From: an uncultured Mucilaginibacter sp.
Lineage (GTDB): Bacteria; Bacteroidota; Bacteroidia; Sphingobacteriales; Sphingobacteriaceae
DNA: 45,181 bases
NCBI RefSeq assembly: GCF_937859865.1
Contig: NZ_CALMAT010000007.1
Coordinates: forward strand, 1-45,181
Reading direction: 5' to 3'
Positions 5,572-33,195 of this stretch are shown here, one piece after another. A model generated the notes under the pieces. The model was given only the letters and a program-made list of their open reading frames with translations. It was not told the DNA's origin and searched no databases. A program made the position numbers and the translations under genes. How positions within the stretch are numbered: position 1 is the stretch's first letter; every line of letters begins with the position of its first letter.

Positions 5572-5733
5572 TATCTTCTTGCTTTGAAAAAGGTTCCTCT
5601 CTGCGTTTAGAATGACAAAATTTGTACTTCTTTTTAACTTAATTCAGCATAATTTTAACTACGTTTAGCAAATTTGTTACATCAAGCTAAAAAATTTAAG
5701 TTTTAATTTGAACTAACACACTAAAAAAGGTAC

Positions 5734-5759
5734 GGTAAAAGAAGCATGCTTCTTTTACC
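5734..5759. repeat. Perfect 26-bp palindrome of the dispersed repeat
   Basis: Two copies of the 14-bp core overlap head to head, giving GGTAAAAGAAGCAT fused to its reverse complement through a shared AT; every base is symmetric. It ends 4 bp before the putative -7 box of the M28 peptidase gene, so it could act as an operator-like or cruciform site there. Confidence 0.85.
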
Positions 5760-5763
5760 GGTA

Positions 5764-11124: not shown

Positions 11125-11167
11125 GGTAAAAGAAGCATCGGCTTATAAACCAAATGCTTCTTTTACC
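11125..11167. repeat. Inverted repeat pair overlapping the metK 3' end
   Basis: Arms 11125-11138 and 11154-11167 are exact 14-bp reverse complements (GGTAAAAGAAGCAT / ATGCTTCTTTTACC) with a 15-nt loop. The metK stop (complement of 11143-11145) lies in the loop, and the right arm encodes metK residues including Lys-Glu-Ala. Confidence 0.85.
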
Positions 11168-12393
11168 TGGTCTAAATAGTCGAGTTTTTCCCAGGTAAAC
11201 AATTCTACTTCTACCTTGGTTTCTTCGCCGTTTGGCGTGAAGAAAGATTTGATTACCGTTTGCGGTTCCTTACCAAAATGCCCATAAGCCGCAGTTTCAG
11301 AATAAATTGGGTTGCGCAATTTAAAACGGGTTTCGATGGCGTAAGGCGTCATATCAAAAATGGCAGCCACTTTTTCGGCGATTTCTCCGTCGTGCAAATT
11401 CACTTTTCCAGTGCCGTACGTGTTTACATAAATGCCCATCGGTTGTGCCACGCCAATGGCATAAGAAACCTGGACCAGAATTTCGGTACAAACACCGGCA
11501 GCAACTAAATTTTTGGCGATATGGCGTGTGGCATAAGCTGCAGAACGGTCAACTTTTGAAGGATCTTTTCCGGAAAAAGCACCGCCGCCGTGCGCACCTT
11601 TGCCGCCGTAAGTATCTACAATAATTTTTCGCCCGGTCAAACCGGTATCGCCGTGCGGGCCGCCAATAACAAATTTTCCGGTTGGGTTGATGTGGTATTT
11701 AATTTCGTCGTTAAAAAAGTGGCTGTATTTTGGATACTTTGCTTTTACACGCGGGATCAGGATTTTAATGATGTCTTCCCTGATCTTTTCTAACATTGCT
11801 TTTTCCTCGTCAAAATCATCGTGCTGCGTAGAAATTACGATCGCATCAATCCGGATGGGCTGGTTGTCATCGTTATATTCCAGCGTTACCTGCGATTTTG
11901 CATCCGGCCTTAAATACGGTATGTCTGAGTTTTCTCGGCGAATGGCAGCCAGTTCGATCAGCAAAGCATTGGCAATATCCAACGTAAGCGGCATAAAATT
12001 ATCCGTTTCGATAGTGGCATAACCGAACATCATGCCCTGGTCTCCGGCGCCTTGCAGTTGTTTATCGGCGCGGTCAACACCTTGGTTGATGTCCGGTGAT
12101 TGTTCATGAATGGCCGATAGCACACCGCAGGAATTGCCATCAAACATGTAAGCGCCTTTGGTATAACCAATTTTGTTGATCACATCGCGGGCAATTTTTT
12201 GCACGTCTAAATAAGCTTTGGATTTCACTTCTCCCGCCAAAAAAACCTGCCCGGTGGTAACCAACGTTTCGCAGGCAACTTTAGAATCAGGGTCGAAGGC
12301 CAAAAAATTATCAATTAAAGCATCAGAAATTTGATCGGCAACTTTATCGGGATGCCCTTCAGAAACAGATTCCGAAGTAAATAAATATGACAT
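11143..12393 (-). CDS. metK: S-adenosylmethionine synthetase
   Basis: 416 residues, close to the Bacteroidota length for MetK. It makes SAM from methionine and ATP in the cytoplasm. The signature segments are all present: [16 protein letters not shown] (ATP/phosphate binding, near residue 10), [12 protein letters not shown] (MAT signature 1), [20 protein letters not shown] and [19 protein letters not shown] (MAT signature 2 with the tripolyphosphate-loop residues). The gene has its own -7 box and a probable SAM-II riboswitch in the leader, so feedback repression by the product is likely. It heads a minus-strand series with the EamA transporter, NUDIX hydrolase and plsC. The last codons coincide with a dispersed-repeat arm. 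Confidence 0.97.
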
Positions 12394-12466
12394 AGCTATT
12401 TTAATAAGTTAACATGAATAAAAAAGCAAAATAGCCGGATGAGGATTGCAAGCGCAAAATGGAAGA

Positions 12467-12522
12467 CCAGTTTTTTAGCACTTTTTTTTACGTGGTTGCA
12501 ATCAATTCAAATCAGTCCACTT
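12467..12522 (-). promoter_or_regulatory. Probable SAM-II riboswitch in the metK leader
   Basis: On the minus strand the leader reads GUGG-ACUGAUUUGAAUUG-AUUGCAA-CCAC-GU, an A-run, then GUGCUAAAAAACUGG. GUGG (12517-12520) and CCAC (12492-12495) can form the closing P1 stem. The blocks CUGAUUU, AUUGCAA and GCUAAAAA occur in the order and spacing I know for the SAM-II (metA-type) aptamer of alphaproteobacteria and Bacteroidota. Position fits: a -7 box ends 10 nt upstream, and metK starts 74 nt downstream. I did not run a covariance model; the pseudoknot pairing was not verified base by base. Confidence 0.72.
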
Positions 12523-12531
12523 TACAGCCAG

Positions 12532-12539
12532 CAAAATTA
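12532..12539 (-). promoter_or_regulatory. Candidate -7 promoter element of metK
   Basis: TAATTTTG on the minus strand fits TAnnTTTG. Transcription starting a few bases downstream would begin right at the 5' edge of the riboswitch aptamer, which supports both calls. Confidence 0.6.
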
Positions 12540-12593
12540 GAACATTTTTATAATTGCCGAAATTTGAAACCAGATTTGTTTTTTGCAGTTGCA

Positions 12594-12709
12594 ATGCTTC
12601 TTTTAGTGCCATAAATTTGGGGTGGATGAAGAACAAGAATAAAATTATATGTGGTAAATTTCGTTCAACAAAAGTTTTCGCACTAAATTTATACCGGTAA
12701 AAACAGCAT
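12594..12709. repeat. Degenerate inverted pair of the dispersed repeat (116 bp)
   Basis: Left arm ATGCTTCTTTTAGTGCC followed by ATAAATTTGG at 12594; right arm at 12686-12709 reads AAATTTATACC then GGTAAAAACAGCAT, the same extended arm reversed with two changes in the core. With the metK leader this fills the 354 bp between metK and the SUI1 gene; nothing else is evident in that gap. Confidence 0.6.
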
Positions 12710-12747
12710 CACGAAAAGGCGTTCAACTCTTTAATAGATAAATTAAT

Positions 12748-13089
12748 TTGAGCAAGAGAAATAAAAATGCCACAGGCGTAGTTTATTCTACTGATCCTGG
12801 TTTTGAATACCAGCAGGAAAATGACTGGGTTGGCGAAACGCTTCCTGCGCAACAGCAGCAGCTCAAGATTTTTTTAGACCGGAAAGCGGGCGGAAAATTG
12901 GTAACTAGGATTACAGAATTTAAAGGCAACGAAGAAGATTTGGAAAAATTAGGTAAAAAACTGAAAGCAAAATGCGGTGTAGGCGGAGCGGTAAAAGACG
13001 GCGAAATATTGATCCAGGGAAATTTCAGGGACAAGGTTTTACAGATTTTGCAAACCGATAACTACAAAGCAAAAATAGCCGGAGGATAG
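12748..13089 (+). CDS. SUI1/YciH-family translation initiation factor (eIF1-like)
   Basis: 113 residues with a TTG start at 12748; the only other in-frame choice before a stop is an ATT two codons earlier. The C-terminal two thirds is the SUI1 domain: [20 protein letters not shown], then [20 protein letters not shown] and [17 protein letters not shown], matching the eIF1 fold and its Lys/Gly-rich loops. The N-terminal 45 residues are polar and probably disordered, as in other bacterial YciH proteins. Bacterial members bind the 30S subunit and are thought to affect initiation fidelity; the precise role is uncertain. It appears monocistronic. Confidence 0.9.
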
Positions 13090-13291
13090 GCAACAATTTT
13101 TACAATTACGGCAATGGTGTGTTTTTTACACTTAATACTTGCATTAATTAATATTTTTCACTTTTATTGTAAAAACAAATTTGTAGAAAGTGTTATTTTT
13201 AAATCAAAGCAGTTCGATAAGCATTTTTAAGGAGGTAAATTAAATTAACATTATCTTTTATATTTATTCTTTTTTTAAAATAGTAAAACTT

Positions 13292-13299
13292 TAAATTTG
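13292..13299 (+). promoter_or_regulatory. Candidate -7 element of the exbB-tonB operon
   Basis: TAAATTTG fits TAnnTTTG and lies 78 bp before the exbB start, in a very AT-rich 288-bp intergenic region that shows no other gene. It would give a leader of roughly 70 nt. Confidence 0.5.
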
Positions 13300-13377
13300 T
13301 TATTCCATTTATAAAAACACCAATATTAAACCCTACATTTATAAAACTAAAAACTAACTAAACTAAAAAACCAAACA

Positions 13378-14226
13378 ATGGCAACTACTCCACCAAAACC
13401 AACAACAACAGCAACAGTAAAAAAAGAAGGCTCAGGTTCATCGAGCATTTTTGCATCTTTAGTAATTCCAATCGCATTTGTCGTAGCTTTATTGATATAC
13501 ATATTTGTATTGGGTGATCCAAGTCATTACAAAGGCGGTGACCCAGCTAACGAGCCAGCAAATGGTGATTACTTTGGTGTTGTGCACAAAGGAGGACCAA
13601 TTGTACCAGTTCTAATGACCTTTTTGCTTTGTGTTATTATTTTTTCTATTGAGCGCTTTGTTGTAATTGGTAAAGCGGCTGGTTCTGGAAATGTAGACGC
13701 TTTTATCAAAAAAGTTCAGTCTTACCTTAATGCTGGAAACATTGAAGCAGCAAGTGCCGAGTGCGATAAACAAAAAGGTTCGGTAGCAAACGTGATTAAA
13801 TCAGGTTTGAAAAAATACCGCGAGATGGAACAAGAGCCAAATTTGGACGTAGATCAGAAATGCCTGGCTATCCAAAAAGATATTGAAGAAGCAACTTCTT
13901 TAGAAATGCCAATGTTGGAGCAAAACTTAACGATCATTGCAACTTTGGTATCTATCGGTACATTAACCGGTTTGTTAGGTACAGTAACTGGTATGATTAA
14001 AGCGTTCGCTGCATTGGCAACATCAGGAGCTCCCAATCAAGCTGCACTGGCGACAGGTATATCTGAAGCTTTGATCAATACAGCTTTAGGTATTTTCACC
14101 TCAACCTTAGCCGTTATTGCGTACAACTACTTTACTTCTAAAATTGATACCTTAACCTATGCTATTGATGAAACAGGTTTTAGTATTGTTCAAACTTATG
14201 CAGCTTCCCATAAAAATAATCATTAA
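13378..14226 (+). CDS. exbB: MotA/TolQ/ExbB proton channel family protein
   Basis: 282 residues. After a Thr/Pro/Lys-rich cytoplasmic N-terminus (about 1-22) there is a membrane helix (IFASLVIPIAFVVALLIYIF), a second one near residues 75-95 (VPVLMTFLLCVIIFSIERFV), a long cytoplasmic helical domain, and the paired C-terminal helices with the conserved GTLTGLLGTVTGMIKAF and NTALGIFTSTLAVIAYNYF. ExbB forms the inner-membrane ring that, with ExbD, couples proton flow to TonB and so powers outer-membrane receptors. It is the first gene of exbB-exbD-exbD-tonB, followed by three linked genes. The extra N-terminal segment is common in Bacteroidota members. Confidence 0.93.
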   Translation: MATTPPKPTTTATVKKEGSGSSSIFASLVIPIAFVVALLIYIFVLGDPSHYKGGDPANEPANGDYFGVVHKGGPIVPVLMTFLLCVIIFSIERFVVIGKAAGSGNVDAFIKKVQSYLNAGNIEAASAECDKQKGSVANVIKSGLKKYREMEQEPNLDVDQKCLAIQKDIEEATSLEMPMLEQNLTIIATLVSIGTLTGLLGTVTGMIKAFAALATSGAPNQAALATGISEALINTALGIFTSTLAVIAYNYFTSKIDTLTYAIDETGFSIVQTYAASHKNNH

Positions 14227-14294
14227 TTTTTATCGTTAATATGTCTGCAATTGTTTGCTCATATTTCTAACCGATTATTTAAAATAAAGTAATT

Positions 14295-14900
14295 ATGCCA
14301 AGAGCTCATATAAAAAGAAAAAGTACTGCAATCGATATGACAGCGATGTGCGATATGGCTTTCCTTTTGCTTACCTTTTTTATTCTTACTTCCAAGCCTA
14401 AAACAGAAGATCTTGTTCCGGTAGATATTCCTGGATCTTCTGTGCTGATTAAATTACCGGATGATGTAGCAACCCTTACAATTGGACAAGGAAAGGTTTT
14501 TTTTAGTATTGAAGGAGAAGCGATAAAGGCACAAACATTAGAAAATGTTGGTCAAAAGTATAATATAACTTTTACACCTGCAGAAAAAGAGTTGTTTTCT
14601 CGATTGCCATCTTTTGGTGTGCCCATAGCCAGTATGAAACAGTTTCTGGATATGGATCCGGAGAAACGTAAGGCATTAAAACAACCGGGAATACCAACTG
14701 ATTCTGTTAGTAATGAATTGTTTAACTGGGTTCGTGAAGCTCGGGTTTCAGCAAAAGCTTTGGTTAATAAAGATTTAAGGATTGGTATTAAAGGAGATAG
14801 CAAGGAAGAATATCCTACTATTAAAAAAGTGATTGCAATATTGCAAAAACAAAAAGTAAACAAATTTAGCCTGATTACTTCAATGCGGGCTGCGAAATAA
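14295..14900 (+). CDS. exbD: ExbD/TolR biopolymer transport protein (first copy)
   Basis: 201 residues. A short basic N-terminus (MPRAHIKRKSTAIDMTAMCD) leads into one membrane helix, MAFLLLTFFILTS, that follows the critical Asp of the family (in DMTAMCDMAF); the rest is periplasmic. This Asp in the helix region is the proton-carrying residue in ExbD. The periplasmic domain is larger than in E. coli ExbD and ends KVIAILQKQKVNKFSLITSM, the usual closing strand and helix. It lies 68 nt after exbB and 16 nt before a second exbD, as in many Bacteroidota. Two different ExbD subunits may form a heteromeric stator. Confidence 0.92.
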   Translation: MPRAHIKRKSTAIDMTAMCDMAFLLLTFFILTSKPKTEDLVPVDIPGSSVLIKLPDDVATLTIGQGKVFFSIEGEAIKAQTLENVGQKYNITFTPAEKELFSRLPSFGVPIASMKQFLDMDPEKRKALKQPGIPTDSVSNELFNWVREARVSAKALVNKDLRIGIKGDSKEEYPTIKKVIAILQKQKVNKFSLITSMRAAK

Positions 14901-14916
14901 TTAAACTTAAAATAAG

Positions 14917-15453
14917 ATGGCAGAATTAGATACCTCCGGGGGTGGCAAAAAAGGCGGGGGAAAAGTAAGGAGTAAAAAAGCATCCACCCGTGTTGATTTA
15001 ACAGCTATGGTAGATTTGGCTTTCCTGCTGATCACATTTTTTATGCTAACCACAACCTTGGCAAAACCACAGGCTATGGATTTAGGCATGCCAGATAAGG
15101 ATGATATTAAAAAGGATCAGTTACCAGTTCCGGCCTCTCGTACAATGTCTGTATTACTGGGCAGTAAAGATAAATTAGAATGGTTTGTTGGCGAACCAGG
15201 AAAAGTAGCCCCTAATGTTGATAATTACGGAAAAAATGGAATTCGTAAAGCTTTATTGGATAATGCTACACGTATTAAACAACAATCAGGTGGAAAGGAT
15301 ATGATCGTGTTAATTAAGCCATCAGATAAATCTGACTACAAGAATTTAGTGGATATGCTGGACGAACTTAAAATTGCTAATATTCAGATTTATGCAATTG
15401 TAGATATTACCGCTGCTGAGGTCGAATCGTTGAAACGAGATGCCCTTTACTAA
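14917..15453 (+). CDS. exbD: ExbD/TolR biopolymer transport protein (second copy)
   Basis: 178 residues, paralogous to the gene just upstream. The N-terminal cytoplasmic tail is Gly/Lys/Ser-rich, then VDLTAMVDLAFLLITFFMLT carries the family Asp and single membrane helix. The periplasmic part ends with NLVDMLDELKIANIQIYAIV, the typical ExbD terminal fold. It should work with ExbB and TonB in energising outer-membrane transport. The two copies differ clearly outside the helix, so this is an old duplication and not a recent one. The gap to tonB is 60 nt. Confidence 0.92.
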   Translation: MAELDTSGGGKKGGGKVRSKKASTRVDLTAMVDLAFLLITFFMLTTTLAKPQAMDLGMPDKDDIKKDQLPVPASRTMSVLLGSKDKLEWFVGEPGKVAPNVDNYGKNGIRKALLDNATRIKQQSGGKDMIVLIKPSDKSDYKNLVDMLDELKIANIQIYAIVDITAAEVESLKRDALY

Positions 15454-15513
15454 TATGTGTAATCAAGATAGAATCAATCAGTTAAAAAAATTAAATCATA
15501 AATTTAAACAACC

Positions 15514-16350
15514 ATGGCAAGATTAGATATATTGGATCCGGAATGGATCGAGGTTGTTTTTAGGGGCCGCAATAAGGCTTATGGAGCGTATGTGCTACGT
15601 AAGGAAAATGCAAAGACATCAGTACGGGCTTTAATCATTGCCAGTGCTTTATTTGTTTTGGCTATTGCAATGCCTACTATTATCAACAAACTTAAAGGTT
15701 TTATCCCTAAGGCAGATGAAAAAGTAAAAATCCAGGATGTTGTGTTAATACCGCCACCGCCGATAGATGCAACTAAACCGCCACCCCCGCCACCTAAAGT
15801 GGAGCCGCCAAAACCAAAAGTTGACCAGGTGCGTTTTCCGCCTCCGGTTGTTAAGCCAGATAATGAGGTGAAGGAAAAAGATCCGCCGACGGTAAAGGAA
15901 CTGGAAGTAAAAGACCCAGGGCAAAAAGATTTGAAAGGCGACCCCAGTGCTGATATCCGTATAGATGAAGCTGTAGGCAAATCGGACATAAAAGAAAAAG
16001 TAGTTGAAGAAAATACCAATGCGATTGTAAGTTTCGCGGCAGTTGAAAAATTGCCGGCATTTCCTGGTGGTGAAGGTGCATTTGGTAGTTATCTACAAAA
16101 GAACCTTCGTTACCCTCCAGTAGCAAAAGAAAACAATACGCAAGGTCGTGTTATCTTATCTTTTGTGGTAGAAAAAGACGGCAGCTTAACTGATATTAAA
16201 GTATTGCGAGATATTGGCGGAGGATGTGGCCAGGAAGCCATACGGGTATTGTCTAAATCGCCACATTGGACACCTGGTATCCAAAACGGAAAGCCAGTTC
16301 GTGTTGCTTTTACCATGCCGGTTAACTTTACGCTTTCGTCAGACCAGTAA
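15514..16350 (+). CDS. tonB: TonB family energy-transducing protein
   Basis: 278 residues. A short cytoplasmic segment is followed by one membrane helix (ALIIASALFVLAIAMPTII, about 34-52), then the proline-rich periplasmic spacer (VLIPPPPIDATKPPPPPP and KVEPPKPKVDQV), and the TonB C-terminal domain (about 180-275) with LPAFPGGEGAFGSYL, YPPVAKENNTQGRVILSF and VLRDIGGGCGQEAIRVLSK. It spans the periplasm to contact TonB-box receptors. The C-terminal domain is strikingly like the one in the M56 sensor at 504-2399. A strong hairpin lies about 30 bp after the stop, inside the next small gene. Confidence 0.93.
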   Translation: MARLDILDPEWIEVVFRGRNKAYGAYVLRKENAKTSVRALIIASALFVLAIAMPTIINKLKGFIPKADEKVKIQDVVLIPPPPIDATKPPPPPPKVEPPKPKVDQVRFPPPVVKPDNEVKEKDPPTVKELEVKDPGQKDLKGDPSADIRIDEAVGKSDIKEKVVEENTNAIVSFAAVEKLPAFPGGEGAFGSYLQKNLRYPPVAKENNTQGRVILSFVVEKDGSLTDIKVLRDIGGGCGQEAIRVLSKSPHWTPGIQNGKPVRVAFTMPVNFTLSSDQ

Positions 16351-16357
16351 TATTAAC

Positions 16358-16576
16358 ATGTTTGACCGATTAAATTTTAAGGAGAAACCGCTCAAAGAGC
16401 GGTTTCTCCTTATTTTAGGCTTAACCACATTTGTTTGTTTTGTAAGTTTAGGATTAATGGTTATGTTTTGGGACAAGCTTCCTTTAAACATGAACAATAC
16501 CCAACGTTACTTATTTGGTGCTGTAATTATTATTTATTCCGTACTTCGATTTTCCAGATATATTACAAGAAAATGA
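16358..16576 (+). CDS. Small two-helix membrane protein of the tonB operon
   Basis: 72 residues starting at the ATG at 16358, 7 bp after tonB. A basic N-terminus (MFDRLNFKEKPLKER) is followed by two membrane helices (FLLILGLTTFVCFVSLGLMV and YLFGAVIIIYSVLRF). I recognise no named family. The gene is likely real because it ends in an ATGA overlap with the next gene and fills the space exactly. Its codons 9-17 form a perfect 13-bp hairpin followed by a T-rich run, so the coding sequence doubles as a potential attenuator. Confidence 0.7.
   Translation: MFDRLNFKEKPLKERFLLILGLTTFVCFVSLGLMVMFWDKLPLNMNNTQRYLFGAVIIIYSVLRFSRYITRK
16381..16409 (+). terminator. Perfect hairpin with T-rich tail downstream of tonB
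   Basis: A 13-bp GC-rich stem (GGAGAAACCGCTC / GAGCGGTTTCTCC) with a 3-nt AAA loop, followed by TTATTTT. It has the features of an intrinsic terminator, but lies inside an open small gene of the same operon. Partial termination (attenuation) that lowers expression of the PstS-like and TPR genes relative to tonB is the simplest reading. Confidence 0.7.
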
Positions 16577-17484
16577 AATCAAGAAATTTAATAAGTTTCA
16601 GTTGTACATTACTATTAAGTATAGTTATTGCTTCCTGCAATAATGCAAATACTGCCGACCAATTCACTTCCGGTAGTTATCGTTTTGTGTTTGATGAATC
16701 GCTTTCCCCGATATTAGACCAGGAGCTGTACGTTTTTAAATCTATTTATCCAGATGCAAAACCTGATGTTATTTATCAACCTGAAAATAAAATACTGGAT
16801 TTAATGCTGAATAATAAAGCAAGATTTGCAGTTATGGGACGTACTTTGAATCCAGACGAAGTAAAAGTGTTAAACAACCGAAATTTACCTCCGCAGATTG
16901 GGAAAATTGCCGAAGATGCCATTGCTTTAATTGTTGGAAAAAATTCCCCGGATTCATTAATGCTGCTGTCAGAAGTAAAAAGTTTGTTTTTAAGCAATAC
17001 TAAAACAAGTAAAAACCTCGTTTTTGATAGTCCAAACTCAAGCATTATTAATTACTTAATGAAGTTATCAGGAACGAACCAATTAAAACAAAAAAATGTT
17101 TATGCCCTTAAAAATAGCAAGGAAGTGATAAAGTATGTTGCCACGCATCAGGATGCAGTTGGTTTTATCAGTTACAGTTGGTTATTAGAACCAGATACAG
17201 ATTATGCCAGTGCAGCTCAAAACATTAGCGTTGTTGGTGTAAAGGATGACAACACAAAAAACATAAACAATAGTTATGTTAAACCTTCGCAATCCGCTTT
17301 GGCTCTAAACCAATATCCTTTAAAAAGAACAATTTATATAGTAGATTGTACCGGTAAAGTAGGTTTAGGTACAGGTTTTGCTTCCTTTTTACAAAGTGAA
17401 CGAGGGCAAAAGATAATATTACGGTCAGGTTTATTACCTGATTCTTTGCCCAGAAGGGAAATAAATATTAAAAAGGACTTATAA
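16573..17484 (+). CDS. PstS-like substrate-binding lipoprotein
   Basis: 303 residues from the ATG at 16573, which overlaps the stop of the small membrane gene (ATGA). The signal peptide ends in a lipobox (LLLSIVIASC), so the protein is a lipoprotein. The mature part has the PBP-like layout of phosphate-binding proteins: FVFDESLSPILDQEL, NNKARFAVMGRTLNPDEV, QDAVGFISYSWL and a late VGLGTGFASFLQSERGQKII. In PstS these regions wrap the ligand. No Pst transporter is nearby, and the association with exb-tonB suggests a role tied to outer-membrane energy transduction. Ligand unknown. Confidence 0.8.
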   Translation: MKSRNLISFSCTLLLSIVIASCNNANTADQFTSGSYRFVFDESLSPILDQELYVFKSIYPDAKPDVIYQPENKILDLMLNNKARFAVMGRTLNPDEVKVLNNRNLPPQIGKIAEDAIALIVGKNSPDSLMLLSEVKSLFLSNTKTSKNLVFDSPNSSIINYLMKLSGTNQLKQKNVYALKNSKEVIKYVATHQDAVGFISYSWLLEPDTDYASAAQNISVVGVKDDNTKNINNSYVKPSQSALALNQYPLKRTIYIVDCTGKVGLGTGFASFLQSERGQKIILRSGLLPDSLPRREINIKKDL

Positions 17485-17511
17485 TATAATTTAACCATTA
17501 GAATTTTAACT

Positions 17512-19227
17512 ATGAAGATGATCAATAAAGCAGCACTGACCATTTCTGGTTTAGCCATGTTAAGTTCTTCTGTATTTGCCCAAAGTTTAGCCGATGCTAA
17601 AAAGGCAATTGATGCAGAACAATACCAAAAGGCCGAATCAATGCTGAAGAACCTTACACAAACCCAAGCCACAAAAGATGAGAACTTTTTTTATCTGGGC
17701 TGGGTATATTTAAAAACAAATGAGCCTGATTCTGCAAAAGCTACTTTTACCAAAGGAATCAGTGTAAACCCGAAATCTGCTTTAAATTATGCAGGCTTAG
17801 GCGCAGTAGACCGTTTAGATAAAAATGCCACTTCCGCAAAAGCAGATCTGGACAAAGCTGTAGCTGCGATAGACAAAAAGGATTTAGAGCCTTATGTATA
17901 TATTGGCAAAGCATATTTATTAGAGCCAAACCCGGATGCAAATGCTGCAATTGCAGTTTTGAAAAAAGGTATCGCATCTAACCCTAAAGAAAAAAACCCG
18001 GAACTATTTGCTGCTTTAGGCGATGCATATCGTTCTCAACTTAAAAATACGGATGCTTATGACAATTATCAGCAGGCATTGGCGATCAACCCAAAAATGG
18101 TAAGTGCCATTGTAGCAACTGGTGTGATTTGGAAACAAGCCAACAACTTTGAAGATTCTGAAAAAGAATACCGTAAGGCATTGGCAATAGACCCAAATTA
18201 CGGCCCTGCTTATCGGGAATTGGCTGAGACTTATTTACGTTGGGGAAACAATACCAAAAAAGCCGATGCACCGACAAAATATACACAAGCTGTAGATTTT
18301 TATAAAAAGTACCTGGATTTAACAGACCGCTCTGTGGCTTCAAGGATGCGTTATGCTGACTTCCTGGTTTATGCGCAGGATTACAAAGGATTAGAGCAAG
18401 AGGCAAATGATATTGCTAAAATCGCACCTAAAGACAATTTAAAAGTTTACCGGTATTTGGGTTACGCGGCCTACGAAAACAAAAACTACCAGGCAGGTTT
18501 AGATGCTTTGAACAAGTTTATGAGCCAGGCAGATCAAAAACGTATTATTCCTTTGGATTACCTATACCTTGGAAGGTTACAGTTAGCCATTGGCGGACAG
18601 GATTCTGCCGCTATTAACAATTTGAGAAAAGCACTTCAATTGGATACTACTCAGGTAGATGCTTACGGCGAGATTGCCAAAACTTTGTATAACCAAAAGA
18701 AGTATGTGGAGGCTGGTGATACTTACAAAACGTATATCGCGAAATCTCGTCAGGTAACATTAGGTGATTATTTGAGAGAAGGTGTAAGTTATTACAATGC
18801 GTTTAAAGAACAATATTTTAGTACTGCCAAAACAAAACCAGTTCCTGATACGACGTTGCTTGTAAAAGCTGATTCGGCATTTAGCTACATACAGCACCAT
18901 GCCGCAGCCCCACAAGCTACAGTCGCACTTTATCAGGCAAGGGCAAATGACTTAAAAGAACCAAGCCGTAATACAACTAATGGTTACGCCAAACCATATT
19001 ATGAGCAATACATTCAGTTGATTAATGCCAAAACCCCTGTTGCTGATGCAGACAAAGTATATTTAGGCGAAGCTTATGCTTATTTAGGAACTTATTACGA
19101 GTATAAAGAAAAAGATGCTGCTAAGGCCAGTGAGAACTTTACCAAGGCAAGGGAAAATGACCCAACTAATAAACAGGCAATTGCTTATTTCTCCAAAAAA
19201 GGCGGTGGTTCCGCAAAAGGTAAATGA
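17512..19227 (+). CDS. Periplasmic tetratricopeptide-repeat protein
   Basis: 571 residues. A signal peptide (MKMINKAALTISGLAMLSSS, cleavage near SVFAQ) is followed by about ten TPR-like units, for example ENFFYLGWVYLKTNEPDSAK, YGPAYRELAETYLRWGN, VYRYLGYAAYENKNYQAGLD and VYLGEAYAYLGTYYEYKE. Such helical scaffolds bind partner proteins. The gene is the last of the exbB-tonB operon, 27 nt after the PstS-like gene, and ends at a strong intrinsic terminator. A role as a periplasmic adaptor for the TonB machinery is inferred from position only. Confidence 0.88.
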   Translation: MKMINKAALTISGLAMLSSSVFAQSLADAKKAIDAEQYQKAESMLKNLTQTQATKDENFFYLGWVYLKTNEPDSAKATFTKGISVNPKSALNYAGLGAVDRLDKNATSAKADLDKAVAAIDKKDLEPYVYIGKAYLLEPNPDANAAIAVLKKGIASNPKEKNPELFAALGDAYRSQLKNTDAYDNYQQALAINPKMVSAIVATGVIWKQANNFEDSEKEYRKALAIDPNYGPAYRELAETYLRWGNNTKKADAPTKYTQAVDFYKKYLDLTDRSVASRMRYADFLVYAQDYKGLEQEANDIAKIAPKDNLKVYRYLGYAAYENKNYQAGLDALNKFMSQADQKRIIPLDYLYLGRLQLAIGGQDSAAINNLRKALQLDTTQVDAYGEIAKTLYNQKKYVEAGDTYKTYIAKSRQVTLGDYLREGVSYYNAFKEQYFSTAKTKPVPDTTLLVKADSAFSYIQHHAAAPQATVALYQARANDLKEPSRNTTNGYAKPYYEQYIQLINAKTPVADADKVYLGEAYAYLGTYYEYKEKDAAKASENFTKARENDPTNKQAIAYFSKKGGGSAKGK

Positions 19228-19243
19228 TAAAAACAGTATCCAT

Positions 19244-19275
19244 AAAAAAGGCTTCTTGAAAAAGAGGCCTTTTTT
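19244..19275 (+). terminator. Intrinsic terminator of the exb-tonB-TPR operon
   Basis: A 14-bp stem (AAAAAAGGCTTCTT / AAGAGGCCTTTTTT, one G-T wobble) with a GAAA tetraloop and a T-run at its 3' side. It starts 17 bp after the TPR stop and separates this operon from nuo. Confidence 0.88.
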
Positions 19276-19287
19276 ATGTTACATTAT

Positions 19288-19295
19288 TATCTTTG
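19288..19295 (+). promoter_or_regulatory. Candidate -7 promoter element of the nuo operon
   Basis: TATCTTTG matches TAnnTTTG exactly and ends 4 nt before the nuoA ATG at 19300, right after the preceding terminator. Transcription would start at or next to the start codon, so the nuoA message may be leaderless. Confidence 0.6.
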
Positions 19296-19299
19296 CAAC

Positions 19300-19671
19300 A
19301 TGGAAGCACAAAGTTTACCAGTCAATTATCTGCCAATCATTTTTCAAATGATTGTTGCGCTTGGTTTTGTTTTTACCACCATGCTTGCAACCCATAAATT
19401 AGGGCCTAAAAGAAGTACTAAAGACAAGTTAACGCCGTTTGAATCAGGGATTGAAGTGATAGGAAATGCACGTACGCCAGTTTCTATCAAATACTTTTTG
19501 GTGGCTATCCTGTTTGTACTGTTTGATGTAGAAGTTATATTTATGTATCCCTGGGCAGTAAATTTTCGGGATTTAGGGTCAGATGGCATGATAGAAATGT
19601 TTGTATTTATGGGGACTTTACTGTTAGGCTTTATTTATATTATCAAAAAAAAGGCATTGGACTGGGATTAA
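19300..19671 (+). CDS. nuoA: NADH:quinone oxidoreductase subunit A
   Basis: 123 residues from the ATG at 19300; an ATG 24 nt earlier abuts the terminator and precedes the -7 box, so it is unlikely. Three membrane helices (about 8-30, 65-85, 95-115) surround the conserved loop KLTPFESGIEVIGNARTPVS and FLVAILFVLFDVEVIFMYPW, the hallmark of NuoA. It is a membrane-arm subunit near the quinone channel of complex I. It heads the complete nuoA-N series, with a 265-bp gap containing a repeat pair before nuoB. Confidence 0.93.
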   Translation: MEAQSLPVNYLPIIFQMIVALGFVFTTMLATHKLGPKRSTKDKLTPFESGIEVIGNARTPVSIKYFLVAILFVLFDVEVIFMYPWAVNFRDLGSDGMIEMFVFMGTLLLGFIYIIKKKALDWD

Positions 19672-19705
19672 AAGTCAGTTTGAAATTTTTTCGATAATAA
19701 TTCAT

Positions 19706-19786
19706 ATGCTTCTTTTACCACATAAAAATCATTGAGGTCTTGTGCTTTTTATACCGAAACAAAATTTAGAGGCATAAAAGAAGCAT
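19706..19786. repeat. Inverted pair of the dispersed repeat between nuoA and nuoB (81 bp)
   Basis: Left arm ATGCTTCTTTTACC (19706-19719) continues ACATAAAAATC; right arm CATAAAAGAAGCAT (19773-19786) is preceded by AAATTTAGAGG, the reversed extended arm. The rest of the 265-bp gap carries no gene; a -7 box lies later at 19887. Confidence 0.78.
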
Positions 19787-19886
19787 GATAAATTTTGCGA
19801 TAAAAATTTAAACCAGTTTTAATAATAGAATTGTTCTAAATAAGTTTATGCTGGTTTAGAAGCTATTGCACAAGAAGTTATTATTG

Positions 19887-19894
19887 TAAATTTG
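19887..19894 (+). promoter_or_regulatory. Candidate internal -7 element before nuoB
   Basis: TAAATTTG (TAnnTTTG) 42 bp before the nuoB ATG. With the 265-bp gap and repeat pair after nuoA, it suggests nuoB onwards can be transcribed from its own promoter. Confidence 0.45.
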
Positions 19895-19936
19895 TACTCG
19901 TCTTTTTTGTGAGATGAGTTTTTTGGCATTAAATAT

Positions 19937-20479
19937 ATGAGTAATATAAAGGTTGTTGAAGCGCCACCGGGCGTAGAAGGATCAGGATTTTTTGCTACTT
20001 CACTGGACCAGGCAATTGGCCTTGCCCGTTCACATTCATTATGGCCCTTACCGTTTGCTACCTCTTGCTGCGGTATAGAGTTTATGGCTACGATGGGTTC
20101 GCATTATGATTTGGCCAGGTTTGGTGCCGAAAGATTAAGCTTTTCTCCACGCCAGGCAGATTTATTAATGGTGATGGGAACAATTGCTAAAAAAATGGCG
20201 CCAGTTTTACGCCAGGTTTATTTGCAAATGGCCGAGCCACGTTGGGTGATGGCGGTTGGTGCCTGTGCTTCAAGCGGTGGTATTTTTGATACCTATTCTG
20301 TATTGCAGGGGATTGATGAAATTATTCCGGTTGATGTTTATGTTCCGGGTTGCCCGCCAAGGCCCGAAGGGATTATTGATGGCTTTATGAACATCCAAAA
20401 ATTAGTGCAAACAGAAAGCGGCAGAAGAAGGGAAGCACCGGAATACAAAGAACTGCTTGCTAAATACGGGATTCAATAA
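19937..20479 (+). CDS. nuoB: NADH:quinone oxidoreductase subunit B
   Basis: 180 residues. NuoB carries the last [4Fe-4S] cluster (N2) that passes electrons to quinone. The ligands are visible as the adjacent pair in TSCCGIEF (C44, C45), C110 in [11 protein letters not shown] and C139 in [10 protein letters not shown]. The sequence between them ([16 protein letters not shown]) is the conserved core. Its stop overlaps the nuoC start (TAATG), so the two are translationally coupled. Confidence 0.97.
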
Positions 20480-20982
20480 TGGGTAAAATTTCAAACGAAG
20501 AAGTAATTAATCAACTCAATTCAAAGTTTGGCGAACAAATTGTTTTGCTTTCAGAACCTTCTGACTTGCCCAATTTTGAAACTTCCCGCGAAAAAATTAC
20601 TGATGTCCTTTCGTTTTTAAAAACAGATCCTACATTTCAGTTTAATTATTTGACGGACATTACCGCTGTTCATTATCCTGACAAGGAAAAGAAATTTGCA
20701 GTTGTTTACCACCTGCATAGTTTTGTCAATAATGTTCGTATCAGGGTTAAAGTTTTTCTTACAGAAGATGACGTCCATATTCCAACGGCAACCAACCTTT
20801 GGAATGGTGCCAACTGGATGGAGCGCGAAACATATGATTACTTCGGAATTGAATTTGACGGACACCCGGATTTACGCAGGATTTTAAACGTGGACGATAT
20901 GACAGTTTTTCCAATGCGAAAAGAGTTCCCATTGGAAGACCCAAACCGCGTAGATAAAAGAGATTATTTTTTTGGAAGATAA
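20479..20982 (+). CDS. nuoC: NADH:quinone oxidoreductase subunit C
   Basis: 167 residues, the separate 30-kDa-type subunit and not a NuoCD fusion. Signature segments are FNYLTDITAVHYPDKEK, the central NLWNGANWMERETYDYFGI and the C-terminal HPDLRRILNVDDMTVFPMRKEFPLED spread over about 30 residues. It sits in the peripheral arm next to NuoB and NuoD. It starts on the last base of the nuoB stop and is followed by nuoD after 16 nt. Confidence 0.95.
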   Translation: MGKISNEEVINQLNSKFGEQIVLLSEPSDLPNFETSREKITDVLSFLKTDPTFQFNYLTDITAVHYPDKEKKFAVVYHLHSFVNNVRIRVKVFLTEDDVHIPTATNLWNGANWMERETYDYFGIEFDGHPDLRRILNVDDMTVFPMRKEFPLEDPNRVDKRDYFFGR

Positions 20983-20998
20983 AAGGAGCATACAAGGA

Positions 20999-22210
20999 AT
21001 GGAAAGTTTTCCTGTTTTTACAAATACCGATGTTCAGGATTCGCCTACAACCTTAAACCTCGGCCCAACCCATCCAGCCACGCATGGCGTTTTCCAAAAT
21101 GTGTTGCAAATGGATGGTGAAAGAATCGTAAGCGGTGTTTCTACCATCGGCTACATCCATCGCGCTTTTGAAAAGATTGCTGAACACCGGCCTTTTTACC
21201 AGATCACACCGCTAACAGACCGGATGAACTACTGTTCATCCCCCATCAACAATATGGGCTGGCACATGACGGTAGAAAAACTGTTAGATATTAAAACGCC
21301 AAAACGTGTAGATTACCTTCGCGTAATTGTAATGGAACTGGCCCGGATTGCAGATCACATCATTTGTAACGGCGTTTTAGGTGTTGATACTGGTGCTTTC
21401 ACCGGCTTTTTGTACATGATGGAATATCGTGAAGCCATTTATGAGATTTATGAAGAAGTTTGCGGTTCGCGATTGACCACCAACATCGGCCGTATCGGCG
21501 GTTTTGAACGTGATTTTAACGAGATCGCTTTCCGTAAAATCCGTAAGTTTTTGGTTGATTTCCCGGTTGTGTTAAAAGAATTTGAATCTCTTTTTAACCG
21601 CAACCGTATATTTATTGACCGTACGCGTGGTGTTGCGCCTGTTGATGCAGAAACGGCGCTAAGTTACAGTTGGAGCGGACCGATTTTACGTGCAACTGGT
21701 GTTGACTACGATGTTCGTGCGATGGAGCCTTACAGTTCTTATGAAGATTTTGATTTTGAAGTCCCGGTTGGCACAAACGGCGATGTTTACAATCGTTTTA
21801 TGGTTCGTAACGAGGAGATGAAGCAAAGTATGCACATTATTTCCCAGGCTTTAGAAAAACTGGAAAAAGAACCGAAAGGTGTTTTCCATGCTGATGTTCC
21901 GGAGTATTACTTGCCTCCAAAACAAGAAGTTTACAACAATATGGAAGCTTTGATCTACCATTTTAAAATTGTGATGGGCGAGGTAAAAACACCGGTAAAA
22001 GAAGTATATCACGCAGTGGAAGGCGCAAACGGCGAATTGGGTTTTTATTTAATTAATGATGGCGGCCGTTCCCCTTTTCGTTTACATTTCCGCAGGCCGA
22101 GCTTCATCAATTACCAAATGTATGCGCCGATGAGCAAAGGCATGCTTTTATCAGATGCCATCATCAACATGAGTAGTTTAAATATTATTGCAGGAGAATT
22201 AGATGCTTAA
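20999..22210 (+). CDS. nuoD: NADH:quinone oxidoreductase subunit D
   Basis: 403 residues using the ATG at 20999, which has an AAGG just before it; a TTG 27 nt earlier would overlap nuoC. The N-terminus has [18 protein letters not shown], the loop at the quinone site (conserved His and Tyr region), then [24 protein letters not shown] and the C-terminal [20 protein letters not shown]. NuoD, a relative of NiFe-hydrogenase large subunits, forms much of the quinone-binding cavity. The last 8 nt overlap nuoE. Confidence 0.96.
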
Positions 22211-24277: not shown

Positions 24278-24286
24278 AAAATAGGT

Positions 24287-24322
24287 GTTAAAAGAAGCAT
24301 CAGCATAAATGCTTCTTTTACC
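24287..24322. repeat. Repeat pair forming a hairpin between nuoF and nuoG
   Basis: Arms GTTAAAAGAAGCAT (24287-24300) and ATGCTTCTTTTACC (24309-24322) face outward with an 8-nt loop. The AAAAGAAGCAT / ATGCTTCTTTT stem with a T-run on either strand resembles a weak bidirectional terminator. It is 10 bp after the nuoF stop, within a 99-bp gap. Confidence 0.78.
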
Positions 24323-24376
24323 ACATAAAAAATAGAGGCGCAGTTTTTAAGTTTTTATTACTGATTAGAAATCGAA

Positions 24377-33010: not shown

Positions 33011-33042
33011 GGCAGAATTGTTTATGCCAGAAAAAATTGCCC

Positions 33043-33130
33043 ATGCTTCTTTTACCCTATAAAAATTGGTGCCTGTATCAATTTAAATAAAACCAAAACT
33101 TTGCCAATTTTTAGATGATAAAAGAAGCAT
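33043..33130. repeat. Inverted pair of the dispersed repeat after nuoN (88 bp)
   Basis: The clearest full-length element. The left arm (from 33043) and right arm (to 33130, read on the other strand) both begin ATGCTTCTTTTA and share TAAAAATTGG after a short variable spacer, giving about 27-bp inverted ends around an AT-rich interior of some 34 bp. No flanking duplication is visible. Confidence 0.82.
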
Positions 33131-33195
33131 GATGGTTGTTAGGTAAACTTTAAACAGGCTATTAGCTTTGGCAGCTAAAACTGCAATTAATTTAA

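Follow-up and report, generated by a model that had tools for sequence, protein, structure and literature searches.

A hairpin followed by TTTT, located in the first codons of a small gene between tonB and a PstS-like gene, is probably a partial intrinsic transcription terminator in the Sphingobacteriaceae. Comparison of relatives showed that selection acts on both the hairpin and its tail as sense-strand RNA, in a gene of the translated type at a conserved junction. We infer termination, its partial nature and its modulation by translation.

The analysed stretch of 45,181 nucleotides (the window) is one contig of a 4.0-Mb genome, with Mucilaginibacter arboris as the nearest named relative by protein search. 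The hairpin lies in a + strand cluster of closely spaced genes, with the following features:

13378..14226, + strand: exbB (MotA_ExbB, E 1.8e-30)
14295..14900, + strand: exbD, first copy
14917..15453, + strand: exbD, second copy
15514..16350, + strand: tonB, the last gene ahead of the hairpin (TonB_C, E 6.8e-20)
16358..16576, + strand: gene of a small two-helix membrane protein, containing the hairpin (no Pfam or NCBIfam family above cut-off)
16378..16412, + strand: intragenic terminator-like RNA hairpin (stem arms 16378-16393 and 16397-16412, loop 16394-16396)
16413..16416, + strand: conserved TTTT tail in the codons ATT TTA (whole in 139/145 relatives, 27.6% expected)
16573..17484, + strand: PstS-like lipoprotein gene (PBP_like_2, E 2e-20)
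17512..19227, + strand: TPR protein gene
19241..19278, + strand: ordinary intergenic terminator-like hairpin 3' of the TPR gene, at the cluster end (inverted repeat I5)

The small ORF starts 8 nt past the tonB stop (7-nt gap), and its last 4 nt are shared with the beginning of the PstS-like gene. Genes labelled by eye as nuo lie beyond the hairpin at the cluster end. The order tonB, small ORF, pstS was found in 174 of 174 family-type loci, duplicates and one genus of another order included. A putative terminator between closely packed same-strand genes, in conserved synteny and with co-transcription assumed, has the setting of an intraoperonic partial terminator. The 72-residue membrane protein ORF that the sequence-only reading had placed after tonB is real. 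By its sequence, the 72-aa product has two hydrophobic helices, and it matched no Pfam or NCBIfam family above cut-off.

The stem consists of 16 perfect base pairs, 8 of them G-C, with an AAA loop, and is followed by TTTTAGG. The sequence-only reading was right about a perfect stem with a 3-nt loop, and its peptide across the hairpin, KEKPLKERFLLILG, was correct. It had described 13 bp followed by TTATTTT, which leaves the last three A-T/T-A pairs unpaired, and it had put the hairpin in codons 9-17 of the gene, the actual span being codons 7-19. RNA folding of positions 16340-16440 (101 nt) gave -30.1 kcal/mol (z = -5.3), and 0 of 200 shuffles were equally stable. In the window sequence alone, the 11-pair core was completed in 0.05% of synonymous codon draws. 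With a G+C-containing stem and a U-rich tract directly after it, the element has the form of an intrinsic terminator, although a weak one on the strict criteria of a consensus scan. That scan, run over 12000-21000, gave 8 sites (8.3 expected by chance); the hairpin at 16378-16412 was not among them because just 4 of the 8 bases after the full 16-bp stem are T. Considering the four-U tail and the absence from the scan list, the element may be a weak terminator or may not terminate at all. An Rfam search of 13000-20000 returned no family at or above its gathering score.

For the comparison with relatives, 172 of 190 loci were anchored, and the 145 with distinct sequence were kept. These represent 17 family genera (g4 entered as Solitalea, after its named copies) and one genus (g82) of a family from another order. 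The 18 dropped loci were 16 from other lineages (L075-L090) and the family loci L119 and L190, which were missed by the anchoring pattern and both carry the hairpin. For each sequence, 2000 synonymous versions were simulated for comparison, their codons sampled according to the usage of its neighbouring genes. All 11 core pairs were present in 136/145 relatives, compared with 0.42% expected, and TTTT in 139/145, compared with 27.6%; the highest simulated sets had 5/145 with a complete core and 57/145 with TTTT. The mean number of core pairs was 10.93 of 11 (7.17 expected; 7.50 in the best of 2000 simulations). The serine in the stem was encoded by TCG in 142/142 cases and the arginine by CGA or CGG in 145/145, codons that are uncommon in the neighbouring genes. 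Synonymous constraint extended over alignment codons 1 to about 17, and freedom returned at 18.

That the palindrome is a product of protein constraint alone is next to impossible: K, S/P, R, F, L and G are conserved residues, but the same residues under synonymous sampling produce stem and tail only at the low rates given above. Synonymous sampling thus refuted protein constraint or chance as the origin of the stem. The earlier suggestion that the bases satisfy both coding and folding held across the relatives, and the comparison strongly supports a single stretch serving both together.

Covariation was assessed on a tree built from the flanking TonB and PstS-like sequences. Pair 5/27, formed by the third base of a Gln codon and the first base of a Leu codon and silent on both sides, was G-C in 90 of the 145 relatives, A-U in 54, G.U in 1 and A.C in 0. 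Its two bases changed together in 6/6 independent pairs on the tree (p = 0.031). Pair 2/30 changed together in about 7/11 and never in the opposite way (median p = 0.016), and no tree-supported covariation was seen for the outermost pairs 0/32 and 1/31. A tool-based count found 95.8% of cells paired, with 39-47% in slid controls, and 138 double-change cells compared with 54.5 in shuffles. The prediction that the stem is kept in relatives through compensating silent changes was therefore borne out in the 145-relative alignment, in which the stem is clearly conserved.

The core contained 62 G.U pairs and 5 A.C mismatches, where synonymous sampling expects 142 and 255. From this asymmetry it follows that the element is a sense-strand RNA hairpin and not a DNA palindrome; together with the paired silent changes, it is what an intrinsic terminator kept as sense-strand RNA would display. 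The T-run was also one-sided, with TTTT on the 3' side in 139/145 relatives and the mirror AAAA on the 5' side in 8/145. A palindromic DNA site for a regulator, lying inside the gene by chance, is scarcely credible. It would fit the 35-bp palindrome and the almost invariant inner AAATCGC / GCGRTTT, yet that invariance is probably what K-S-x-x-x-R-F plus pairing forces, and the outer stem bases have been rewritten between genera with pairing retained. An operator was rejected on the grounds of this rewriting and of the asymmetry between G.U and A.C.

Around the hairpin, further codon biases were observed, for which neither hairpin nor tail accounts: the Gly codon after the TTTTA tail (window 16418-16420 and equivalents) has a third-base T in 1/145 relatives, though GGT makes up 49% of Gly codons in neighbouring genes, and the Leu codon after it prefers CTN. 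On the loop side, the third base of alignment codon 5 (window 16393 and equivalents) is C in 104/145, though mostly unpaired in relatives, and this codon is CCC 87 times, with about 10 expected. A pairing of the loop CCC with the GG after the tail, noticed by eye, was rejected as a candidate, no covariation being possible with the G's fixed by the protein.

Outside the hairpin, the gene had a pN/pS of 0.17 with a pS of 0.567, and pS within the hairpin was 0.218. By these ratios, the small gene is evolving as a protein gene outside the hairpin. In 131/145 relatives, the small ORF has an ATG start, placed between -1 and +24 nt from the end of tonB. The other 14/145 (L029, L066, L094, L095, L097, L125, L126, L128, L130, L135, L136, L138, L142 and L157) were without an in-frame ATG from the tonB end to the hairpin; those inspected could start at GTG or TTG. 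In L297 (genome G007), the small ORF runs in two frames, with the shift at a G run directly after the hairpin and with hairpin and tail intact; this frameshift may be genuine or may reflect a sequencing mistake.

The small protein was present in 189 of 201 sampled family genomes, in 200 of 201 genomes of the order sample (all of which belong to the same family), and in 99 of 295 class genomes, where matches outside the family were mostly weak and without the N-terminal part. In 26 of 36 other-lineage loci, the match began no earlier than profile position 13. A small two-helix protein between tonB and the PstS-like gene is thus conserved through much of the class. The genus f54/g82 (L067, L068, L070 and L071), which belongs to another order, has a very similar protein and a hairpin of this type, and most relatives of this genus are without the gene, a distribution that suggests transfer of the cluster.

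The fetched genomes were part of the matching ones and biased to better protein matches. This bias is partly offset because 33 of 34 family genomes with weak protein matches matched the RNA model at E 2e-7 or better, the exception being G022, in which an N-terminal hairpin and T-rich tail are kept with both bases and residues different. Over the 295 class genomes, RNA model R1 gave 14 strong matches (E below 1e-7), all at the small gene; the other 14 listed matches had E 7e-4 or weaker, and some were the opposite strand of strong-match sites. Among 13 genomes without an initial protein match, the RNA model gave 0/13 strong matches. Nine of these 13 match the protein profile weakly; eight have a hairpin in the second helix, and G024 has none.

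For other lineages, the analysis was restricted to the 60 loci in which a tonB match lay close upstream. In 24 of the 60, a terminator-like hairpin with a T-rich tail was found between tonB and pstS, compared with 0.5 in 60 for shuffles; by the criteria used, the junction had none in the other 36. The hairpin was located before the ORF in 15 of these loci, inside the second helix in 8 and after the ORF in 1. In g10/g23, the second-helix codons for GIGxxFIxYSFFR form a stem of 10-15 bp with a tail of up to TTTTTTT. Pairing is kept between these genomes despite changed bases, and in L299 residues have changed on both sides. On this evidence, what persists at the junction is a terminator-like element and not a sequence.

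In all seven f22 loci (L086, L202, L246-L249 and L251), the hairpin is before the ORF, which starts within about 40 nt after the intergenic terminator. In L086, this terminator is also followed by TATTTTTG, seen by eye, which resembles a Bacteroidetes promoter box. The two halves of the cluster may be separate transcripts in f22.

A terminator-like function is well supported by these comparisons, because the U-tract is conserved and other lineages have putative terminators at this junction. A terminator is preferred over a generic hairpin because of the strict tail, the position, and a function that apparently moves between lineages. The distance from the tonB stop to the stem is 20-53 nt, with a median of 31 and in no case below 20 nt, so that a ribosome of usual footprint finishing tonB would not cover the stem. 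From the small ORF's start codon, the stem is 20-41 nt away.

In the terminator reading, a polymerase that has passed exbB-exbD-exbD-tonB would reach the terminator about 60-70 nt after the tonB stop. A fraction of polymerases would stop at TTTT, which would form the 3' end of an exbBD-tonB mRNA, and the remaining ones would read through, giving a lower level of the small protein, the PstS-like protein and the TPR protein. Partial stopping is likely because the tail is short. Since the start codon is upstream of the hairpin, full-length mRNA for the small protein would arise only by read-through.

Two roles without termination were weighed. In the first, the hairpin would act post-transcriptionally, as a 3'-end stabiliser or a landmark for an endonuclease (RNase III-like), at the boundary of an exbBD-tonB mRNA that is stable and a downstream portion that is less so. 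A sense-strand RNA hairpin 20-53 nt after the tonB stop would suit such a role, which would, however, require neither the strict TTTT right after the stem (139/145) nor the long U-tracts of other lineages, such as TTTTTT after the second-helix stem in g10/g23; we consider it unlikely. A translational role, in which the hairpin slows initiation or re-initiation of the small ORF after tonB or pauses the ribosome early, and so sets a protein ratio without ending transcription, is quite improbable. In its favour are the distance of 20-41 nt between start codon and hairpin and, for the 131/145 relatives with ATG, a start that falls between -1 and +24 nt relative to the end of tonB. It leaves the TTTT tail unexplained, however, and the hairpin is before the ORF in 15 other-lineage loci and deep inside it in 8.

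Within the terminator reading, translation could influence the outcome. Ribosomes starting the small ORF quickly would open the 5' arm and favour read-through, while a ribosome parked at the tonB stop or at the small ORF start would leave the stem free. Translation-coupled attenuation had been proposed from the single sequence, and the geometry allows it. Its other element, a conserved antiterminator or alternative structure, was not found: RNAalifold of the 145 relatives, extended by as much as 80 nt on the 5' side and 96 nt on the 3' side, gave the single hairpin only, so the mutually exclusive terminator and antiterminator of a ribosome-controlled attenuator were not seen. Because of this, regulation beyond a fixed read-through fraction is without direct support. 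Translation-coupled read-through is a possibility.

A more speculative extension, which we regard as doubtful, is that the translated terminator senses coupling. The output of small ORF, PstS-like gene and TPR gene would then track how promptly ribosomes move from tonB into the small ORF. Terminated mRNA, with a start and without a stop codon, may engage ribosome rescue; the site would be evolutionarily mobile (before the gene, N-terminus, second helix), and the peptide would be partly shaped by the hairpin.

The Bacteroidetes promoter motif is TTTG-N-TAnnTTTG. A search for it after the hairpin in the 145 loci gave 4 strict matches (2.0 expected) and 18 relaxed ones (9.0 expected), which is not convincing. 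One relaxed match was in the window, ending at 16468.

Intraoperonic partial terminators and attenuators are known from E. coli at rplL-rpoB, rpsU-dnaG and frd-ampC, between coding regions or in the leader. As in these cases, we propose from sequence a leaky intrinsic terminator between neighbours that lowers the downstream genes. Unlike in the rplL-rpoB type, hairpin and tail here form part of the coding sequence of a conserved protein and have been preserved through paired silent changes.

ORF-internal RNA 3' ends, some with intrinsic-terminator scores (aceK int, 5.9), have been proposed to reflect premature termination in E. coli, according to the available part of that report (PMC7815308). 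The candidate termination inside an ORF is a likeness, as far as that part goes; the E. coli ends come from 3'-end mapping in one species, whereas the present site is known from sequence. The same part describes no family-wide stem with silent compensation at a fixed operon junction, unlike here. In the available sections on the Sinorhizobium meliloti DUF1127 element (PMC12218461), termination in an upstream ORF is proposed to be Rho-dependent, and synonymous changes matter. As in such ribosome-controlled attenuators, early codons of a small ORF would take part in the termination decision proposed here; unlike in the element as those sections present it, the hairpin is of the intrinsic type, the ORF encodes a conserved membrane protein, and there is no conserved alternative structure. 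For Methanococcus maripaludis, the accessible text of PMC10450193 reports internal-operon termination sites that raise upstream above downstream expression. An internal site with upstream genes above downstream ones is also what we propose, but that system is archaeal, and the accessible text describes no translated hairpin.

No description of a translated tonB/pstS hairpin was found in the open-licence literature. Genes are expected to avoid terminators in their own coding sequence; here one has apparently persisted in the codons of a conserved protein, with paired silent changes, in 17 genera or more, and in a second lineage there is a terminator-like hairpin inside another part of the same small gene. 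If the element terminates, it shows a way of setting operon stoichiometry through a terminator that has to be translated by ribosomes, and the locus would offer a ready natural test of transcription-translation coupling in Bacteroidota. The comparison further ties an uncharacterised small membrane protein to the TonB energising cluster throughout the class.

Elsewhere in the window, a repeated inverted element with the arms GGTAAAAGAAGCAT / ATGCTTCTTTTACC occurs at 5733-5760, 11125-11167, 24282-24327 and 33042-33131, and a further arm of it was seen by eye near 19705-19790.
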